From assembly GCF_001484685.1 (NCBI RefSeq), contig NZ_CP012200.1, positions 1,792,321 through 1,856,320 on the forward strand: DNA of 64,000 nt, written 5' to 3'. The notes under the pieces are model-generated. The model was not told the origin of the DNA. It worked only from the letters and a program-made list of their open reading frames with translations, and did not search any database. A program made the position numbers and the translations under genes. Below are positions 10,603 through 26,128 of the stretch, piece after piece (the first letter of the stretch is position 1; the number at the start of each line of letters is the position of its first letter). Origin of the DNA: Thermococcus sp. 2319x1 (GTDB lineage: Archaea > Methanobacteriota_B > Thermococci > Thermococcales > Thermococcaceae).

Positions 10603-11524
10603 ACCCTAGTTCCCATCGGGTTGTTAGATTTATATGCATTTAAATTTTTTGGTTGATTGGGGATTGTTATGGACTTCCAGAAGGAAATCCTGATCATAAA
10701 ATCCGAAATTTGCCCGATAGTCAGCAAACACTACCCGAAAAACACCCGTAGGGAAGTAATCAGCCTCTACGCGTAACGCGCAATACTGACACACTTACAC
10801 TTTAACGGAGTTTACAAACACGCTTACAGGGTTTTAATTGAGGAAATGAAGCTGTTCCCCAAAATCAGGTACAACAAACTGACAGAACGCTTGAACAGGC
10901 ACGAAAAACTCCTGCTCCTAGCGCAGGAAGAATTATTCAGAAAACACGCCAGGGAATACGTCAGAATAATCGACTCGAAGCCAGTTGAGACTAAAGAGCT
11001 GGCCAGAAAAAACAGGAAAGGGAAGGTAGGTTCTTCAGAAGTCATAACTGAAAAGCCCGCAGTTGGGTTTGTTCCATCTAAAAAAGTTCTACTATGGGTA
11101 CAAGCTGATTTGTTACTCTGATGGGAATTTGCTGGCTTTGCTGTCTGTTGATCCGGCGAACGAGCATGATGTGAGCGTTGTCAGGGAAAAGTTCTGGGTG
11201 ATTGTTGAAAAGTTTACTGGCTGTTTTCTGTTTTTGGATAAGGGGTATGTCAGCAGGAGCTCGGGGGAATTCCTGAAGTTTGGCGTTGTTTACACGCCGG
11301 TAAAGCGGGAGAGTCAGATTGGTAGTCTGGGGGAGAGGAAGTTTTACAAGTACCTGTCTGATTTTCGCAGGCGGATTGAGACTTTGTTTTCGAAGTTTTC
11401 TGAGTTTCTTCTGAAACCGGGCAGGAGTGTTAGTTTGAGGGGTTTGGCTGTTAGGATTTTAGGGGCGATTCTGGCCGTGAATCTGGACAGATTATACAAC
11501 TTTACAGGTGGTGGGAACTAGGGT
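10603..11524 (+). mobile_element. IS982-family insertion sequence, copy 1
   Basis: 922 bp bounded by imperfect inverted ends: ACCCTAGTTCCCA at the left and its complement TGGGAACTAGGGT at the right. The body encodes an IS982-type DDE transposase (broken). Nearly all of it aligns with copy 2 at 17626-18557, apart from a 6-bp gap near 10776, short length differences and scattered substitutions. I see no convincing target-site duplication in the flanks, so the insertion is old or the flanks have changed. Confidence 0.85.
10669..11521 (+). pseudogene. IS982 transposase, copy 1, disrupted
   Basis: Starts at ATG 10669. It is interrupted by an in-frame TAA at about 10777, where copy 2 reads YDLITF and this copy has lost 6 bp. 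A second break is at an A6 tract near 11080-11086, after FVPSK. Downstream, the frame reading KFYYGYKLICYSDGN continues to LDRLYNFTGGGN with the stop inside the terminal repeat. DDE candidates are Asp in IDSKP, Asp in FLDKGY and Glu in RRRIETLF. This copy should be inactive by itself. Confidence 0.8.
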
Positions 11525-14289: not shown

Positions 14290-15945
14290 TTAGCCTTTTT
14301 GCTGCTCTCTAAAGAGTTCACGATACCTCTGGCACGACTGAAGCAACTCATTGTGCCGTCCTCTGCATGTCACCATGCCCCCGTCAAGCACCCATATCTC
14401 TTCCATTTCCCTGACGGTTGAAAGTCTATGAGAGATGACCACCACCGTCATATCCATCATCTTGAGCCTCTCTAGGATTTTTGCTTCAGTTTCCGAGTCT
14501 ATGCCCGAAGTTGCCTCGTCTAGGATAAGTATTTTCGGTCTTCTAACCAATGCTCTTGCCAGAGCAATTCGTTGCTTCTGCCCGAGTGAAAGGTTCTTGC
14601 CGCCTTCTTCAATTAGAGTGTTCATATCAATGCCCCCAAGCTCAACGAGCTCAAGCAATTTTGCAATATCATTGTCATTAACGTTCATGCCCAGAGCAAT
14701 GTTTTCCTTAACAGTCCCTGTAAAGAGATGGGGGGAAGAGGGTATATATATGAGAGAATTACCTAAAATGGAAGATGGATGACAGCCTCCTATGCTCACA
14801 GTGCCCTTTGTTGGGCTTAGTATTCCTGCAAGAAGCATGGCTAATGTTGTTTTTCCAACACCTGATGAACCTACAATTCCAAGTTTCTTTCCATAAGGTA
14901 TTATAGCTGATATGCCCCTGAGCACTTCTTTCTCGTCATCAAAGGAAAAGTGAACGTCTTTAAGTGTAATATCGAAGGAGTATGGATTACATGCAGACCT
15001 TTCTGAGGACTCCCCTATTTCGAGTATTCCCCATATCCTGTTCAGAACTGGAATTGCCCTTTGATATGCGCTCCATAGAAACGCAAAGCGCTCTATGGGG
15101 TAGTAAACTTTTCCTAGATATGAGAAGACAGCAATGACGACGGAGAGTGGGGCCATTTCCTTCTTAACAAGCAGAAGGCCTGCAAGAAGTATGGTCAAAG
15201 GCAAGATAGTTGAGAGGTATGACTGGAGACCATAGTTTGCCGTTTGATAGAACGCCATCTTCTTTGTCGCCTCGACCCATTCATCGAGATTTTTGGATAT
15301 CCTAGAGATGAGATACTCAAAGGCGTTCAGAGCTTTGGCATCCAGCCTGCCATCAAGTCCTTCCTTGAAAGCGGTAACTGTCTTTGAGTATTTTTCCCTC
15401 TCATTTGATGAAGCAATCTTCAATCTATGGACAAATGCCCTCATGGAGAAGCCATATATCGGCATTGTGATGAGTGTGAGTAATCCCAGATAAACGTTGA
15501 GCTTGAAGACGACAAAAACGGCCATAGCGAGAGAAAATCCCTCAATTATTACAGCAGGTATAAGAGACATTCCAAGTCTGCCTACTATTTCGGTATCTGA
15601 TTGAATCCGCGAAAGGGCATCCCCAGGTTTTATGTTTTCTGCGTATAGGGTTGAGATAAAAAGCCTTCTCTTCAGCCATGCTGCAGCTTTGGTCTCGGCA
15701 AAGTTGCTTATGAAACCAGCATAGAGGTATATTACAGTAGAAAGTGTGTAAAGACCAAGTATAATCCCTATCTCCCTAAGTATCTGGGAAAGTGTTAACA
15801 TTTCAAGCTCATCCAAGAGGTTCCTTAAGTAAAATGGAACCATGGCAGAAAGAATCGTTGATATAACTCCCAGTACAACGAGCAGGAGTATGTATTTCTT
15901 GTGTGCTCTCCCAATCTCCATGAGTTTTCGGAAGTTCTCACCCAA
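14290..15945 (-). CDS. ABC transporter, fused membrane and ATPase domains (peptide exporter type)
   Basis: 551 aa half-transporter: about six membrane helices (residues 15-300), then an ATPase domain with Walker A GSSGVGKTT (359-367), Q-loop region IPSSPHLFTG, signature LSLGQKQR (452) and Walker B ILILDEATS (472). It has no N-terminal C39 peptidase domain. TTG 15945 overlaps the end of the radical SAM gene (stop 15938-15940), so translation is coupled. Next to a maturase and a tiny precursor gene, export or self-protection for a modified peptide is the likely role; lipid or drug export is the alternative. Confidence 0.88.
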   Translation of the reverse strand: MGENFRKLMEIGRAHKKYILLLVVLGVISTILSAMVPFYLRNLLDELEMLTLSQILREIGIILGLYTLSTVIYLYAGFISNFAETKAAAWLKRRLFISTLYAENIKPGDALSRIQSDTEIVGRLGMSLIPAVIIEGFSLAMAVFVVFKLNVYLGLLTLITMPIYGFSMRAFVHRLKIASSNEREKYSKTVTAFKEGLDGRLDAKALNAFEYLISRISKNLDEWVEATKKMAFYQTANYGLQSYLSTILPLTILLAGLLLVKKEMAPLSVVIAVFSYLGKVYYPIERFAFLWSAYQRAIPVLNRIWGILEIGESSERSACNPYSFDITLKDVHFSFDDEKEVLRGISAIIPYGKKLGIVGSSGVGKTTLAMLLAGILSPTKGTVSIGGCHPSSILGNSLIYIPSSPHLFTGTVKENIALGMNVNDNDIAKLLELVELGGIDMNTLIEEGGKNLSLGQKQRIALARALVRRPKILILDEATSGIDSETEAKILERLKMMDMTVVVISHRLSTVREMEEIWVLDGGMVTCRGRHNELLQSCQRYRELFREQQKG

Positions 15946-17275
15946 CTATATTCCCCCCGAGGGTTTCTATGACTTTCTTCATATCCCTAGTAGCAACATT
16001 GTATAGTATGTGCTCAAATGTCCTCTCATAGGCCCTAGGATACTTAAGAACGTAGGTACCCTTCACTTTTTCTTTTAAATGGATTCTACAAAAATCACCA
16101 AGATTGCTAAACCAAGCGTCATGCAATTTCAGCTTTGACATAGTAAAATGTTCTGTTACCTTGGATATCCTCTCTTTTAAGAGTTTTGTGAAATCTTTGT
16201 CTCTTATATTTCCTAAATAAAATCGCCTGTCTAAGTACGTTTGATGGCATGGATACACATCTCCATCGTAAAATACAGTTATCCTCAGAGGCATCTCGGA
16301 ACATATGTACGTTTTCACATGATATTCTGGATCGAGAATCTCCCTAAGGATTCTACATACGCCCATTTCTTTTATTGGTATACCCTCTTCCCATTTGTCA
16401 AACAGATAATCCACTAGTTCCTTCAAGAATTCCTCAATTTCCGCTTCTTTTAATGCATATTTATCCCTAATAATGTTATTTTGAAATTGCACTGGCGGAA
16501 GAACATACCCAACTATAAATGTCTTTGAATATTTACTCAAATGAGACAATATGTCACGTATGGAATATTTCTGAATGTAATTTCTGGCATATGTTACTTC
16601 TAATGCTAGTTTGATACCCCTCTCATTTAGCAGTTCTAGTCCTTTTATAATATCTGCGTATGTGCCTTTCCCATTTTTATACTTCCTATTCAGGTCGTTT
16701 ACTACTTGGGGACCATCAACGCTGACCGTTACTTCAAAGTCATACTGGGTAAAAAAATCAGCAATTCGCCTATTAATTAACGTTCCGTTAGTTACAATAC
16801 CATATCTAAACTTGTATCCATTGATGTCAGCATATTCCACCAACTTCTCTATTGAATCGAAGTTTAATAATGGCTCGCCACCATAAAACTGAACAGTGCC
16901 CACTCCTAGTTCATTTGCTATGTCTAGGGCTCTTTTCCCTAGTTCTATTTTAAGTATACCTGGCTTTGTGTATGTACCCTCAAATGCGTAGCAATATGCG
17001 CATTTCATATTACAGGTTTGAGAGACCATTAAAACCATCATGTTTGGATTAATCTCTGCAGGCACTATTATCGGATTTACATTCTCACGTTTTGAATCTA
17101 ACGTTTTTTGGATTTCCAATAGCATCTGCCTCTCACTTAATGTCAATGGAGCATTCCGTTTAATCTTGTTTATGACCTTAACTTCTTTAGAATCTAAAAT
17201 TAATAATGTCTTGCTCAGGGGATCAAAGCCCATATACTTGTTTTTTATTTGAAACGTATGAATAAAACCCACCAT
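15938..17275 (-). CDS. Radical SAM peptide maturase with SPASM/twitch-like C-terminus
   Basis: 445 aa. The N-terminal 70 residues (YMGFDPLSKTLLILDSKEV) resemble the leader-binding start of peptide-modifying radical SAM enzymes. The AdoMet cluster motif is C88-x3-C92-x2-C95 (CNMKCAYC), followed by YGGEPLL (132) and SVDG (185). The C-terminal part has the SPASM-type CSEMPLRITVFYDGDVYPC and GNI, but only four Cys (307, 325, 343, 396), so probably one auxiliary cluster. It lies 54 nt after a 33-codon precursor-like gene and overlaps the ABC exporter. Thioether or other crosslinking is inferred, not shown. Confidence 0.85.
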   Translation of the reverse strand: MVGFIHTFQIKNKYMGFDPLSKTLLILDSKEVKVINKIKRNAPLTLSERQMLLEIQKTLDSKRENVNPIIVPAEINPNMMVLMVSQTCNMKCAYCYAFEGTYTKPGILKIELGKRALDIANELGVGTVQFYGGEPLLNFDSIEKLVEYADINGYKFRYGIVTNGTLINRRIADFFTQYDFEVTVSVDGPQVVNDLNRKYKNGKGTYADIIKGLELLNERGIKLALEVTYARNYIQKYSIRDILSHLSKYSKTFIVGYVLPPVQFQNNIIRDKYALKEAEIEEFLKELVDYLFDKWEEGIPIKEMGVCRILREILDPEYHVKTYICSEMPLRITVFYDGDVYPCHQTYLDRRFYLGNIRDKDFTKLLKERISKVTEHFTMSKLKLHDAWFSNLGDFCRIHLKEKVKGTYVLKYPRAYERTFEHILYNVATRDMKKVIETLGGNIVG

Positions 17276-17329
17276 AGTTATCCCCCGGTTTAGGGTTTAA
17301 AAATAAAAAATAACAATAAAATTATAGCG

Positions 17330-17431
17330 TCATTTTCCAGTTCCAACCTTGTCGCAACAACATGCAAGACCAACACCACCAGCACTTGGGGCAACTGGAG
17401 GTAGCTTTGCTTTTAGTTCTACAACTTCCAT
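17330..17431 (-). CDS. Candidate RiPP precursor peptide, 33 aa
   Basis: ATG 17431 lies 7 nt after a strong GGGGGTGG. The peptide begins MEVVELKAKLPPVAPSAGG and ends VGLACCCDKVGTGK, with the stop at 17330-17332. It has a short acidic leader, a Pro-rich middle, a GG pair followed by a Gly-rich stretch, and three adjacent Cys as likely modification sites. It is directly upstream of the radical SAM gene, has its own promoter and is too short for routine gene callers. A different frame over the same DNA (17322-17462) is less likely. No known RiPP class is recognised. Confidence 0.65.
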   Translation of the reverse strand: MEVVELKAKLPPVAPSAGGVGLACCCDKVGTGK

Positions 17432-17476
17432 ACTTCGCCACCCCCTTGATTTTTTGCTTCATTGTTGCCTCGGCAT

Positions 17477-17487: not shown

Positions 17488-17625
17488 TTGTATTTAATAC
17501 TTAAATCTTTCGTAAACTTTTAGTTAATAACTCAAAGTTAACAAATTTCTAAAAAAAGTAAGTCTCAGAATCCTTACTTTTCGTGAATTCTAATGTTCTT
17601 AATAAAGTAAAACTTTGTAAAGTAA

Positions 17626-18557
17626 ACCCTAGTTCCCATTAGATCGTTAGAGTTATAAGCACTTAAGTCTTTTGGTTGATTGGTGGTTGTATTGAGCTTT
17701 CAAAGGAAAATCCTGATCATAAAATCCGAAATCTATCCGATAATCAGCAAACACTACCCGAAAAACACTCACAGGGAAATAATCAGCCTCTACGACCTAA
17801 TAACCTTCGCAATACTAGCACACTTGCACTTTAACGGAGTTTACAAGCACGCTTACAGAGTCCTAATCGAAGAAATGAAGCTGTTCCCCAAAATCAGGTA
17901 CAACAAACTAACAGAACGCTTGAACAGGCACGAAAAACTCCTGCTCCTAGCGCAGGAAGAATTATTCAAAAAACACGCCAGAGAATACGTTAGAATACTG
18001 GACTCAAAGCCCATTCAGACCAAGGAGTTGGCCAGAAAAAACAGGAAGGATAAGGAGGGTTCTTCAGAAGTCATCTCTGAAAAGCCCGCAGTTGGGTTTG
18101 TTCCCTCTAAAAAAAGTTTTACTATGGGTACAAGCTGACCTGTTACTCTGATGGAAATTTGCTGGCTTTACTGTCTGTTGATCCGGCGAATAAGCATGAT
18201 GTGAGTGTTGTCCGGGAAAAGTTCTGGGTGATTGTTGAGGAGTTTTCCGGCTGTTTTCTGTTTTTGGATAAGGGGTATGTTAGCAGGGGGCTCGAGGAGG
18301 AATTTCTGAGGTTTGGCGTTGTTTACACGCCAGTAAAGCGGGGGAATCAGATTAGTAATCTGGAGGAGAAGAAGTTTTACAAGTACTTGTCTGACTTTCG
18401 CAGGAGGATTGAGACTTTGTTTTCGAAGTTTTCTGAGTTTCTTCTGAAGCCGGGCAGGAATGTTAGTTTGAGGGGGTTGGCTGTTAGGATTTTAGGGGCG
18501 ATTCTGGCCGTGAATCTGGACAGATTATACAACTTTACAGGTGGTGGGAACTAGGGT
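17626..18557 (+). mobile_element. IS982-family insertion sequence, copy 2
   Basis: 932 bp with the same ends as copy 1 (ACCCTAGTTCCCAT left, GTGGTGGGAACTAGGGT right). It abuts the truncated ABC permease gene at 18558, whose remaining part is absent on the other side, so the insertion was accompanied or followed by a deletion. Together with copy 1 it frames the 11.5-17.6 kb segment holding the RiPP-like genes, in direct orientation. No clear target duplication is visible. Confidence 0.87.
17692..18554 (+). pseudogene. IS982 transposase, copy 2, split at an A7 tract
   Basis: TTG 17692 aligns with the ATG of copy 1. The N-terminal half (to FVPSKK) is intact. At TCTAAAAAAAG (about 18109-18119) the frame must shift by -1 to continue as KFYYGYKL and on to LDRLYNFTGGGN. 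Catalytic candidates are Asp in LDSKP, Asp in FLDKGY and Glu in RRRIETLF. Only this break separates it from a complete transposase, so slippage on the A7 run could give active protein. Confidence 0.75.
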
Positions 18558-18948
18558 TATTACAAACTGAAGCAACGCGGGTGGAGAGAGCGGAAGAGCA
18601 AGGAACAGAATTCCCACAAGTACCAGGAATAAAGACACTAGAATAACTACCAAGCTCTCAACTAACACCTTCGCAAGGATGTAACCACTTAAACTGTCCC
18701 CCGAAAATGGAGGTTCTCACTATCCCAAACCTAACATCATTAAACGTTGTTGGGCTAACAACAAGGTAAGAGTAGAATATTTGGATTGCAATAACGCCGG
18801 GGAGGGCATAAAGAAGGTAACTCACTATTTTTCCATGATATTCAAAGCTCACGGTTCTCGAGAGGGAGAACGCAAAAAACAGAAAATACATTAACGGAGT
18901 TATAAACTGGGATATAAATCCCCCCACGGCCTCTTTCTTTAAAGCCAA
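18558..18948 (-). pseudogene. ABC-2 type permease, truncated by IS982
   Basis: Starts MALKKEAVGGFISQFITPL and continues with hydrophobic helices. Near FGGQFKW the frame breaks at a G5 run (about 18697-18705) and goes on in another frame as SGYILAKVLVESLVVILVSL up to the IS982 end. The rest of the permease is missing beyond the IS. It is preceded by its decayed ATPase partner. Not functional as written. Confidence 0.65.
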
Positions 18949-18951
18949 GTC

Positions 18952-19680
18952 TCATTCTTCAATCCCCCCAACGAGTTTTATAAATCCATCAAGTAGTGTC
19001 TCCTCTTTAACAGGAATCTGGGTGATATCAAACCCAACATCCCGCAAAAACAGGAGAAGCTCATAAAATGCCGATTTATCTTCAAGTTCTACTTTATCAT
19101 CTCCAATAATTTTCCCTAAGTTGTTTCGTTTTAGGTGATCTGATAACTTTCCAATGAGTTGAGGCGGGAGTTCTTTTTTTTTTTTTGAATGTAACCAGTA
19201 CCTTGCCTGCATAAACATGTTTGAGTTCCCCAAGGGTCGTATGAAGGATTATCTTTCCTTCTATTTATGAAAACCATCTCATTGGATAAGCTCTCAACTC
19301 CTGCCATGTCGTTGGTCGTCAGGATGAAATAGTATCCTTCCTTACTCATTTCACGAATAAGATTCCAAGTAAATTTTTTCCAATAGGATCAAGACCCAAT
19401 GTTGGTTCATCCATAAATATCAGCTTACTTCGTTGGTCTAAGAAAGCTCTGGCAAGCTGTGTCCTTCGCATCAATCCCCCAGACAGCTCAAAAACCCTTT
19501 TGTGTTGATGTTCAGTTAAACCGAACAGCTCAACAACTTCATTTATCCTCTTTTCGAGCTCGTTCTTTGCGATTCCACGTATCATGCCGTAGAATTTTAG
19601 ATTCGTTCTAACAGAAAGCAAGACATCAAGCTCAACGTCTTGGGCACACAAAGCCACAATTTCCCTAATCTAGGTGTGTC
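18952..19680 (-). pseudogene. ABC transporter ATPase, decayed, Walker A missing
   Basis: Three frames join: 19346-19657 (QDVELDVLLSVRTNL, signature LSGGLMRRTQLARAF, Walker B IFMDEPTLGLDP), 19131-19349 (MSKEGYYFILTTNDMAGVES) and 18952-19233 (KKELPPQLIGKLSDHL to LVGGIEE). The first 70 or so residues with Walker A are absent. One break lies at an A13 tract (19174-19186). It belongs to the drug/antibiotic export ATPase type that pairs with ABC-2 permeases and lies 3 nt from the permease remnant. Confidence 0.7.
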
Positions 19681-20026: not shown

Positions 20027-20050
20027 GCCAGCTTGTGGTATATCGCTTTG

Positions 20051-20965
20051 ATGAACAAGGAGATAAACAAAGAAGAAATTGAATTTTTAGTAAACCTGCT
20101 GGACAAATACCCGCTCGAAAGCATCAACTGCATAGCCAAAAAAGAAAAGATCAGCTATGCAAAGCTCAAAAAGCTCTTTGATAAATATTACGGACCGTCC
20201 AAAAGCGTCACTGTATCTGCTTCCATAAGCATAGCCAAACTCGGTCTCATGAGCTACGTGGCATTTCTATCGGTTCCAAGGGAGAACATAAAATCCACAA
20301 TCGCCAAAATGTACCGCAACCCCTTTATTCCCGTTGCAGTCCCGTTTTTCGGTTTTATAAATGGGGTCTCCACAGTAATGTATATCCCTCTAGAGCAGAG
20401 GGACAAAATAGACGAACTTCTCTCAAGGTATTCCCCAAATTATGAATACTACGAAGTATACGCCTTTCCTCCAGGGAAAGTGGAGTTTGGAAAGTGGGAG
20501 TTCAGCTATGACTACGCTCTCTTGCTCGACATCTTAAAAAGGGATGCAAGAACACCAATGAAGGAAATAGAAAAAACCTTGGGAAAAAAGAGGCCAACGA
20601 TAAGGTACATGATCAACAGGCTCAAAGATTTGGGCATACTACGGGGCTTTATGACGGTAGTAAATGAAGAAGCCTACAACAGAGGGTTCTGTGGAATAGC
20701 AAGGTCTCTCAACGAAGAATTCATAGAGAGGTTCAAAGAGCATGAGATAATGATCGGTGTGATAAAGCCTGCGGGCTATCTCATAGAATGGTACTTCTCA
20801 AGTAAAGAGGACATATACCAAAAAATTCTCGAATTCAGTAAGTACGTTGATAGGTTCGGCATATACTATTTTGACATGTTTGACTTCGGGATAAGAGGGT
20901 TTTCGTTTTCCAAAGCAGTGAAAAAAGATGGAAAGGGATACCACTCTATTCTGGAGTTTGATTAA
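20051..20965 (+). CDS. Lrp/AsnC-like transcriptional regulator with two helix-turn-helix regions
   Basis: 304 aa. An N-terminal HTH-like segment (about 10-45, LESINCIAKKEKISYAKLKK) and a second, clearer winged HTH in the middle (LLDILKRDARTPMKEIEKTL with KRPTIRYMINRLKDLGILRG) frame a putative ligand-binding part. ATG 20051 is preferred over TTG 20033 because the promoter predicts a leaderless start. The gene is convergent with the SPASM protein, with 20 bp of overlap. Target genes are unknown; the eroded ABC and RiPP-like genes upstream are possible. Confidence 0.75.
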   Translation: MNKEINKEEIEFLVNLLDKYPLESINCIAKKEKISYAKLKKLFDKYYGPSKSVTVSASISIAKLGLMSYVAFLSVPRENIKSTIAKMYRNPFIPVAVPFFGFINGVSTVMYIPLEQRDKIDELLSRYSPNYEYYEVYAFPPGKVEFGKWEFSYDYALLLDILKRDARTPMKEIEKTLGKKRPTIRYMINRLKDLGILRGFMTVVNEEAYNRGFCGIARSLNEEFIERFKEHEIMIGVIKPAGYLIEWYFSSKEDIYQKILEFSKYVDRFGIYYFDMFDFGIRGFSFSKAVKKDGKGYHSILEFD

Positions 20966-21890
20966 AGTTAATCCCCAAAAACTCACAGTATTCCATGCCG
21001 CAGATTTCCCCGGATGCTTGATATTCAAGCGCCCTGCAGTCATGACAAGTGTATTTAAAGGGGCACGAGCGACAGAGAGGGATATTCTCTTTGGTGAGTG
21101 TCCAAAACTGATTTAGAACTTTCTTCCTCGGCAGATACCAGAGCTTATCCCTTCTTATGTTGCCGACCACGAAATTCCTCAGCAAGGGACAGGGAGTTAT
21201 GTAACCGTCCGCCGCTATAGAGATCGTACCAGCCAAGCAACTGTGGTACCTGTTTGGAGAAGACGACAAAAGCTTCTTAACCTCAAACAGGTTAAAATCA
21301 ACTTTTTTTAATGAGCCCGGAAAAAGGATGTCCACATAAACTTCCCCAGGAAACTCAACTTTCTGCTGAAGAAGCTCAGTGTATTCCTTATACTTTGCCA
21401 TTATTAGCGCCCCATGAGCCCATTTTAGATGTTTCAGTTCCGAGAGAGCATCTTCCGAATATTCCATCTCCACTATTACCTTTAAGCCTTCTACCGGCTC
21501 AAGGGCGTCGATATCTTCAATTCTAATCGTGGCAAAAACATCTCCAGGAAAGCTCGCCAAGATATGCCTTGAAATTTCACCTAACTCTTCAACTTCGTCA
21601 TAGTTCACCAAGTATATTTCCTGACCACCCACTCTTGTAAACTCTTTAACTACTTTTTCAATTTCTTCCATCCCTATTTTTTCGTCTCTTAAGATAAACC
21701 TGTTGTTTCCTATGCAGCCGAGAGAGCGAGGAATGCCGTGAAGCTCTGAGAATTTTCCCTTTCCCCTACCCAAGCTTAAAATAATCCTTTCCAGTTTGCC
21801 ATCGTGAGGTTTATGGCTCCATGGGGGCTTTGCTACAGTTGCAATCTTTAATCCATTGGTACTAAACTTCCAATGATCGCTACCACCCAC
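20946..21890 (-). CDS. SPASM-domain protein lacking the radical SAM CxxxCxxC
   Basis: About 314 aa. The C-terminal third has a full SPASM pattern: CLAGTISIAADGYITPCPLL, GNIRRDKLW, CRSCPFKYTCHDCRA and CGMEYC, enough for two auxiliary Fe-S clusters. The N-terminal part contains only one Cys (in LGCIGNN) and no CxxxCxxC, so it should not cleave AdoMet. GTG 21890 follows GGTGATTGGC; ATG 21902 is an alternative. It may be a partner or degenerate paralogue of a peptide-modifying enzyme. It is convergent with the regulator 20051-20965. Confidence 0.7.
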   Translation of the reverse strand: MGGSDHWKFSTNGLKIATVAKPPWSHKPHDGKLERIILSLGRGKGKFSELHGIPRSLGCIGNNRFILRDEKIGMEEIEKVVKEFTRVGGQEIYLVNYDEVEELGEISRHILASFPGDVFATIRIEDIDALEPVEGLKVIVEMEYSEDALSELKHLKWAHGALIMAKYKEYTELLQQKVEFPGEVYVDILFPGSLKKVDFNLFEVKKLLSSSPNRYHSCLAGTISIAADGYITPCPLLRNFVVGNIRRDKLWYLPRKKVLNQFWTLTKENIPLCRSCPFKYTCHDCRALEYQASGEICGMEYCEFLGINFNQTPE

Positions 21891-22042
21891 GCCAATCACC
21901 ATAAAAGGATTGCGTTTATGGTTGATATACTTTTTCTATTCAGATTTTATTGACCACTAATAAAAGTAACACAAACTTGTACACAATCAACGGCAAAAGA
22001 TTTAATAACTTTTGATTACTAAATTGTTGTGGAGGTGGGAAA

Positions 22043-23949: not shown

Positions 23950-25956
23950 CTAATCCTCAATTCCTTTTTCAGTGATACTAAACGCCGCTTCTCCTTCAGG
24001 GAGATGTGGAGAGTCTATAAGTCTTGCAATTCTCTTTCCAGCCTTTCCTTTCCTTAAATAAACTCTAACTGTTGCGGAGTGTGCCAAGATATGACCTCCT
24101 ATTGGTCTTGTTGGATCGCCAAAGAATGCATCGGGTCTCGCTTGAACTTGGTTGGTAACAAACACCGCTATATCGTAAAGGTTGGCCAAACGATGGAGGT
24201 CAGCCAAGTGCTTGGCGAGCTTTTGTTGCCTCTCCGCCAATGTTCCTCTTCCAACGTATTCGGATCTAAAGTGTCCTGTGAGAGAGTCCACGACAAGAAG
24301 TTTAACCGGCCTGTCGCTTGCAGCTTTTTCCTTGATTATTTCCTCCGCCTTTTCTACGAGGAGCATTTGATGGTTGGAGTTAAAGGCCCTGGCAACGTAA
24401 ATGTTCTTTAATACTTCCTCCGGATCCATGCCCCTGTTTTCCGCTATTTGCTTTATTCTTTCTGGCCTAAATGTATTCTCGGTATCAATCCAGATTACAC
24501 TTCCATTCAAGCCGCCCTCCTCTGGGGGCTTTTGGACGAGAACAGCCAGTGTGTGGGCTAATTGGGTATTGTGGAGTATCAGCCCGTTTGGTGCAACAAA
24601 GTTGTGAACCTCTGGAACCACCAGATCGTAGACGTAGTCGTTGTATTCCACCAAGCTAACGCTCTCAACTTCGTGGAATGAGAGCTTCCTAGCTAAAGAT
24701 ATCACCTCAAGTGCGTGCCTTGCTATTTCTCTTAGGTGTTGAATTTCAGATTTCAGCGCGGATATAACTTTAGCTCTTAATTCTGTATCTTTAGGAATCC
24801 CCCGGTAGCGGTAATTTTTAATTTGACCTTCTGTAAAACCATATTTTCTGAGGACTGTCCATGAAAATGGTAGCTTTGGCTTATCAGTATTGCAAAGTTC
24901 TTTTTCAGCACGCTCAAGCTCTGCAAGGGCTTTTTTAAAGTACGCTTCTATTTTCTCCAACGTCTTTTCAGTAAACCAAACTTCCTTTGAACGTGTTAGC
25001 AAGTGAGATGCCGTCTCACCTTCTTGTTTAGGCAACTTGAAGTGTGAATAAAGCTTTCCTAGGTACCGTGCAAGCTGTGGTGGATACCTTCCAACGCCTC
25101 CCGAATTAAATCCACCAACTTTAATTAAAGAATTTGCTGGTACTTTCCTAACCCCTACAAGCACATCTCCCCTTTTGATTTCTCCAGCCTTTATCCACTG
25201 GAACCCATCCCTAAATACCAACACGGGGTGAGGAAGTGTTACTTTAATGTTGATCCCAGTTGAAAGCTTAAGTTCTACAAGGTTTGAGACCTTCTCCCGG
25301 TAAATGTAACTTGCCTTTGTCCTTTTTACTTCCCCACTGTCAAGATCAAAGGCGTAAACGGTCACAGTATCCACTGGAACAGCGAAGCCATTGTCAAATG
25401 GAACTTCGCCATTTTTGAGTGCATACTTTGTATACATTTCCTCTATGCTCTCAAAATGCACTACTGTGTCATTTTCGTAATAGATTGGAGTGTCCTTTGC
25501 AAAGCATTTTCCACTTCCAAACTCTCCAAATACCTCTGAAATAGCCTGTGTCTCAATCCCACCGCCGAGAAGCTTGTCCAAGGACTTGCTTCCGGTAGTA
25601 ATCTTGCCCACAACAGCTCTCTTTTTCAAATACTCATCGGCACGCATAAAGGTTCCGATATTGACGGCTTCTCTTGCGGCTTGAATGATCTTTAAAGCGG
25701 CCCCTTCACTTATTCCAGCAAGCTCTTTTAATTCCAAGGGAGATGCAACTGCTATTGCTTCCAAACTATCATAACCTGCCTCTCTAAGCTTTTCAGCAGT
25801 TGCGGGTCCAACTCCGGGGAGATCTTCCAGGCTTCTTATTTCTTTCTTTTTTGTTGTTTCACTCTCTGCTTCAATAGACAATTCTTCAAGATCGTCGAGC
25901 TCTTCAAACTCTTCAAGCTCTTTAATTTCATCCTCAACTTTCTTTTTTCTCGCCAT
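23950..25956 (-). CDS. radA: DNA recombinase RadA with an intein
   Basis: 668 codons; without the intein about 355 residues, the normal RadA size. The N-terminal part has an acidic stretch and a helix-hairpin-helix ([17 protein letters not shown]). Walker A GEFGSGK is split by the intein after its Lys, so the protein is inactive until splicing rejoins GSGK with TQLAHTL. Walker B is [12 protein letters not shown]2-region [20 protein letters not shown] follows. ATG 25956 is preceded by GGGTGG; GTG 25965 is upstream in frame. A TATATAA box at about 26005-26012 serves as promoter. Confidence 0.96.
24568..25506 (-). other. Intein in RadA Walker A, 313 residues
   Basis: Starts at Cys ([12 protein letters not shown]) and ends LILHN before Thr+1. 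Splicing blocks are present: block A at the N-terminus, block [14 protein letters not shown], block [18 protein letters not shown], terminal His-Asn. The region between blocks B and F holds about 140 extra residues compared with the known mini-inteins at this site. This insert is Lys/Glu-rich and helical and shows no LAGLIDADG motif. The splicing part looks intact. Confidence 0.92.
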
Positions 25957-26128
25957 AGTTACCACCCGTAAGCATGATCCTAAATAGTGATGAAGTCAGA
26001 ATGCTTATATATTTTTCCCATGCCCTAAAAAAGGATTTAAAGGCTGAAAATTACAAAACCATTGATTAGTAAAGCCAGAATACCAAAATAAAGGCCTTAA
26101 GTTTGAGATTTCCATTGGAAATGAAACT

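Follow-up and report, generated by a model that had tools for sequence, protein, structure and literature searches.

The locus analysed here places a 33-codon gene, whose product carries three adjacent cysteines (CCC), ahead of genes for a radical SAM (rSAM) enzyme and an ABC exporter, and raises the question of whether these genes form a RiPP cassette, what such a cassette would make and what controls it. It lies in the window, by which we mean the whole stretch of 64,000 nucleotides that was analysed (G000:C1:1792321-1856320), taken from the 1.96 Mb, single-contig genome of a member of the Thermococcales. The features under discussion are, in window coordinates:

17330 to 17431, minus strand: precursor peptide gene, 33 aa, MEVVELKAKLPPVAPSAGGVGLACCCDKVGTGK; kept upstream of 4 orthologous rSAM genes and showing a third-position bias
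17438 to 17445, minus strand: Shine-Dalgarno of the precursor gene, GGGGGTGG, read from the sequence
15938 to 17275, minus strand: rSAM maturase, 445 aa, with a predicted RRE-like N-terminus and four auxiliary Cys; PF04055 80 bits, SPASM 25.9 bits; best PDB match CteB
14290 to 15945, minus strand: ABC exporter (TMD-NBD), 551 aa, without C39 peptidase; PF00664 and PF00005
17498 to 17590, minus strand: shared promoter/operator element, matching model R1 at G000:C1:1809818-1809910 (E = 1.5e-18); 18-copy alignment
17626 to 18557, plus strand: IS copy (IS982-like, split transposase frame), a 932-bp unit adjoining the promoter; neighbour outside the cassette
10603 to 11524, plus strand: second IS copy, in the same orientation and 89% identical to the first; neighbour outside the cassette

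An earlier note on this DNA had described a 33-codon gene with a strong ribosome-binding site and a 54-nt gap to the rSAM gene, and a check of the sequence and its open reading frames located all three: the Shine-Dalgarno sits 6 nt ahead of the precursor ATG, and 54 nt separate the precursor stop from the rSAM ATG. The overlap that it reported between exporter and enzyme genes is also there, the ABC frame starting with a TTG at 15945 within the 3' end of the rSAM gene. The main Pfam matches of the exporter are ABC_membrane and ABC_tran; as had been claimed, Pfam detected no C39 peptidase domain in it, which sets it apart from double-Gly exporters (C39/PCAT), and the cassette itself contains no leader peptidase gene.

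We searched 94 Thermococcales genomes with the rSAM enzyme and found close orthologues in G081, G077, G024, G018 and G038 (54-99% identity), while a scan of named genomes returned a single close orthologue, in Thermococcales archaeon 44_46, and otherwise distant relatives only. Orthologous cassettes are present in four other Thermococcaceae, five in total with the window, and the small frames ahead of the four orthologous rSAM genes encode MEVVELKAKLPPVAPSAGGVGLACCCDKVGK, MKSLDLKAIIPPVAPSAGGSGNYCCCNKVNTN, MEVLELKAIIPPVTPSSGGSGNHCCCNVSTT and MKSLELKAIIPPVAPSAGGSGNYCCCNKVNTN. In each of the five cassettes, and likewise in G077, the ABC gene is kept behind the rSAM gene; in G077 an IS copy took the place of promoter and precursor along with the opening codons of the rSAM gene. 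The precursors share the consensus LKAxxPPVxPSxGGxGxxCCC; the three adjacent Cys are invariant in all five and are followed by Asp in two (CCCD) and by Asn in three (CCCN). A profile built from the five precursors matched exactly those five sites in the 94 genomes, one per genome and always upstream of the rSAM gene, and returned nothing further in 115 genomes of the phylum; the precursor was not found in plasmids, viral contigs or genomes of the phylum outside Thermococcaceae. No NCBIfam or Pfam family matched it and the CCC pattern corresponded to none of the curated RiPP precursor families tested, in agreement with the view that it fits no curated class.

A third-position test set beforehand was applied to the precursor gene, and the differences concentrated at third codon positions, which account for 20-22 of the 34-35 that separate the window from the three divergent copies and for 8 of 8 between the precursors of loci L039 and L041, the closest informative pair (dN/dS about 0.03). 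Between the window and the divergent copies dS was saturated and dN was 0.26-0.30. This substitution pattern is indirect evidence that the precursor is translated. Judged from sequence comparison, the co-conservation of precursor, rSAM and ABC genes in four other genomes, taken with the third-position bias, is more than chance would be expected to produce. The RiPP layout proposed in the earlier note gains support from these results, as five genomes keep the 33-aa frame beside homologous enzymes, as it changes in the manner of a protein-coding sequence, and as the maturase model, described below, fits CteB. In G018 and G038 (loci L040 and L041) the rSAM frames are broken, at different points, with the precursor and exporter frames open; either decay or sequencing error would explain these breaks, which suggest that the system is also being lost.

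The enzyme contains seven Cys in total, C88, C92 and C95 of the CNMKCAYC motif and then C307, C325, C343 and C396, so that the motif and the four-Cys auxiliary region read from it beforehand are confirmed with exactly four further Cys. C325, C343 and C396 are common to all full-length relatives aligned, and C307 occurs in the CCC group only. The best NCBIfam profiles were those of PapB, nif11-type, CcpM and SCIFF maturases, each well under its cut-off (158.6 bits against 340 for the PapB family NF047865, 123.6 bits against 425 for the SCIFF/CteB-type TIGR03974), and the enzyme reached the cut-off of no curated RiPP maturase family. An AlphaFold2 model computed from a 13-sequence alignment (mean pLDDT 79.7) places strands at 6-10, 13-18 and 23-27, then helices at 29-39 and 46-64, ahead of the barrel; residues 6-64 would thus form a beta-beta-beta-helix-helix unit resembling an RRE. 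Foldseek ranked CteB (5wgg/5why, E about 1e-21) at the top with a full-length match, the next being anSME, ChlB, TigE, SkfB and SuiB.

On this basis, the product of the cassette is most likely a Cys-crosslinked peptide that would be exported. We propose that the conserved leader of the CCC precursor is bound by the RRE-like N-terminus of the rSAM enzyme, that the enzyme would crosslink at least one of the adjacent Cys, that the ABC protein would export the product and that a protease encoded elsewhere would cut off the leader; the peptide may serve as a signal or an antagonist. Since CteB comes first in the fold ranking, thioether formation on CCC, towards nearby residues, is the most likely chemistry. 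The enzyme might instead epimerise its substrate, form C-C or ether crosslinks or modify CCC in some other way, for example to give a metal-binding peptide. The fold matches also take in SuiB, ChlB, TigE and anSME, and three adjacent Cys are unusual in thioether macrocycles. Furthermore, Asp is a common acceptor for PapB, with a CX3D/E crosslink motif in the precursors of that family (PMC9413430); this motif is absent from the CCC precursors, and the Asp is replaced by Asn in three of the five. We nevertheless hold such a non-thioether reaction to be possible but somewhat doubtful, because the best full-length fold (CteB) and the best profile (PapB) both belong to thioether-forming enzymes and because the three Cys are invariant.

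The cassette had also been described as lying between two IS982 copies and as possibly mobile for that reason. Two IS982-like copies of about 930 bp do flank it, but in both the transposase frame is split, and its matches to DDE_Tnp_1/DDE_Tnp_1_3 are weak. Their common orientation on either side of the cassette is what a composite transposon would call for; we consider movement by this pair very improbable, since G081 carries the cassette without an IS beside it, G077 and G076 have the same flanks, the DNA on the outer sides of the two IS copies differs, no target duplication is seen and neither transposase frame is intact. In G077 the IS, 94.6% identical to the copy beside the window promoter, even replaced promoter and precursor. 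The composite transposon was rejected for want of an IS-bounded unit with target duplication, and on present evidence the two IS copies are not the vehicle of the cassette. The cassette is an accessory unit. In the sister species G076 the same flanks (methyltransferase and FMN reductase, one on each side) enclose an ATPase-like gene where the cassette would stand, with no element, so that the promoter and the three genes seem to be gained and lost together. Cassette DNA is 97.8-98.6% identical among the window, G077 and G081, compared to about 92% for a housekeeping segment (in the case of G081 the comparison rests on two fragments, 92% and 86% identical), a difference that suggests recent exchange.

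Other genes of the window deserve a brief description. Fragments of an ABC transporter (18658-19657, minus strand), permease and ATPase in different frames, lie between the IS copy and a regulator-like gene at 20033 and are those of a decayed transporter. A 318-aa SPASM protein (20946-21902, minus strand) without a recognisable rSAM core, whose best NCBIfam match is the grasp-with-spasm family TIGR04193 (62 bits, below the cut-off of 175), is a possible pseudo-rSAM near the cassette. The RadA frame (23950-25965, minus strand, 671 aa) is interrupted by an apparent intein.

What had been taken for the precursor gene's own promoter is one copy of a multi-copy promoter element common to about a dozen cassette types. 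Of the DNA ahead of the precursor, about 120 bp also matched sequence in front of the three tandem precursors of G078, which are unrelated to the CCC peptide. When the 144-bp upstream region was used as query, 20 genomes were matched, with 8 copies in the own genome, whereas a control of 144 bp upstream of radA gave one match per genome, within the genus only. An alignment of 18 copies from several genera contained 20 invariant columns (consensus GAATTTGTGAAAAGAAGCTTTTTnAGGATTACTTTTTTTTAGAAATTTATTAACTTTAAATTATTAACTATAAGTTTACGAAAAnTTTAAATA). The element, about 93 bp long, consists of a TATA-like box, TTTAAGTA (17498-17505), and about 80 bp of conserved DNA before it, within which lies an AACTT-N15-AAGTT inverted repeat. 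With a threshold of E <= 1e-4, the sequence-only model R1 detected 38 copies, spread over 24 genomes that all belong to Thermococcaceae, and none outside that family.

We then counted rSAM genes behind the 36 copies with readable downstream DNA. Such a gene follows 24 of them at a distance of up to about 3 kb, or about 4 kb where an IS interrupts one copy, and was confirmed by Pfam in ten representatives; the other 12 lack one, some being visible deletion relics. Among copies outside model building with inspectable downstream DNA, an rSAM gene follows 10 of 16. In the own genome one occurs within 3 kb of 4 of the 8 copies against a background of 2.0% (P = 1.2e-5). The window cassette belongs to this set, with the R1 element upstream and the rSAM gene 54 nt past the precursor. 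Mean identity over 55 pairs from 11 cassette types was 70% for the elements and 27% for the maturases, the element of the own-genome relic standing in for that of one G015 type. At the CCC loci of G024, G018 and G038, R1 gave a single forward match, a weak one in G018; an AACCT-N15-AGGTT repeat seen by eye at the corresponding place in G024 and G038 was not counted as an element copy. The promoter is therefore no obligate part of the CCC family. In G081 (L042 13948-14115), the TATA-like box and the DNA after it are present twice, through a tandem duplication of 24 bp.

At least 12 cassette types stand behind this one element. In most of them the last gene encodes either an ABC transporter or a membrane protein of MFS-like type (the domain check for MFS covered one type), and for some types (G047, G015a and ..GYCKDLMF) the peptide is a candidate only:

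CCC type: window, G081
ITACSG x3 type: G078, G077
GWLCYAxCxxxCVGGC type: G038, G071, G023
FVCGLCGFCGAF type: G093
two-rSAM type (candidate peptide): G047
..GYCKDLMF type (candidate peptide): G039, G055, G071
GPTPAGGCCNRSQRC type: G015, G058, relic in the own genome
second G015 type: G015; relic in G035
YIPPxGEDLG type: own genome, G078, G056
Ala-rich 72-76-mer type: G016, G069
TLLTCCLQVW type with B12-binding rSAM: own genome; in G077 the same maturases behind an IS
repeated GPICAPEAHW type: G060; own-genome copy without clear peptide

The gene order of the CCC cassette recurs with other precursors. Three tandem ..FIGITACSG.. peptides occupy the precursor position in G078 and G077; in G078 (L043 9161-11113 and on), where they read ..FIGITACSGxAxxCGG.., they precede rSAM and ABC genes under the shared promoter and form a further RiPP family. 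An Aciduliprofundum has MVEEVKLSTTANGAKIAGGGGCAVGCIGVGICGVGCMM in this position; its 38-aa peptide (L027 6900-7016, plus strand) ends in GGGGCAVGCIGVGICGVGCMM before rSAM and ABC genes and is a candidate RiPP outside Thermococcales. Behind the element in G060 (L160 about 456-653), a 65-aa peptide with two repeats ending in GPICAPEAHW is a candidate multi-core precursor. Relics were also observed. At 1937509 in the own genome, the element is followed by ..FFGTLYKQPRVQ, nearly the end of the G078 maturase, after which comes the same ABC gene as in G078. Locus L134 (G000:C1:1463149-1475133) holds three element copies in 12 kb, each before a truncated rSAM peptide cassette, which makes the locus a graveyard of such units. 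Upstream of a purQ/purL-like pair, one site carries different cassettes or relics from species to species (L043, L139, L147, L138, L140, L137).

Two readings of this distribution were weighed. The element could be an ordinary strong promoter spread by recombination or by co-copying with its cassettes and read by no common regulator. Different cassettes do occupy one site before the purQ/purL-like pair in several genomes, promoter and genes are jointly missing in G076, and cassette DNA is closer than the housekeeping segment (98% vs 92%). Such an origin seems unlikely to us, as the 18 copies share 20 invariant columns and remain conserved for about 80 bp ahead of the TATA-like box, which exceeds what a core promoter needs, and as the unrelated maturases imply an old divergence through which the sequence of the element was nevertheless kept. 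We propose instead that transcription starts from the 93-bp promoter/operator placed before at least 12 peptide-maturase-exporter cassettes and that one regulator probably controls them together, the promoter staying while the cassettes behind it change. Taken as a whole, with its chemistry, export and common regulator included, the best explanation is that the three-gene unit is a CCC RiPP cassette under a common regulated promoter, and we consider this probable. A stronger version, to which we would give an even chance, is a dedicated RiPP regulon of Thermococcaceae: one transcription factor would read the 80-bp operator before the TATA box and switch on a dozen cassettes of differing chemistry, the fixed operator would let cassettes be exchanged, acquired or lost like cartridges, and the CCC peptide, crosslinked at its three adjacent cysteines, would be one product among them.

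As a simple marker in the DNA, the promoter helps to locate many cassettes of hyperthermophiles and might allow them to be induced jointly; it also opens to experiment the question of how peptide antagonism or signalling is triggered in these archaea. For a maturase of the thioether type, CCC would be an uncommon core to act on, and heat stability can be expected of the enzymes.

In the literature searched we found no account of Thermococcales RiPPs or of the shared promoter, although an earlier mention in work on archaeal antimicrobial peptides is possible, and no characterised product of an archaeal rSAM RiPP cluster. Genome mining has predicted ranthipeptide and sactipeptide clusters in archaea (PMC12144867), so this kind of system was to be expected; Thermococcales and the shared promoter are unmentioned there. 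The ranthipeptide systems of CteB/ScfB (SCIFF) and PapB (NF047865) resemble the cassette in their short Cys precursor, their rSAM enzyme with an N-terminal RRE-like domain and their auxiliary cluster Cys, but the present system is archaeal, has a CCC core rather than CX3D or six spaced Cys, and has only four auxiliary Cys. Sactipeptide systems (AlbA, SkfB, RumMC, StsB) likewise pair an rSAM enzyme with a dedicated exporter, and Cys crosslinks are the chemistry expected in both cases; their maturase models all score far under cut-off here and their precursors are dissimilar. The alignment to the profile of TIGR04068, CcpM of a Cys-rich peptide system, begins at residue 4 and covers both the RRE-like N-terminus and the rSAM core, but scores 131 bits against a cut-off of 500, and the precursor of that system is unrelated. 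The hypervariable Ig-domain gene modules of Thermococcales (PMC8416519) are also variable, conflict-type loci at conserved sites, but no radical SAM gene is mentioned there and proteins and architecture differ. Taken alone, the cassette belongs to a known kind of system, as a further member or as a variant; what surprises is the promoter that unites a dozen types.
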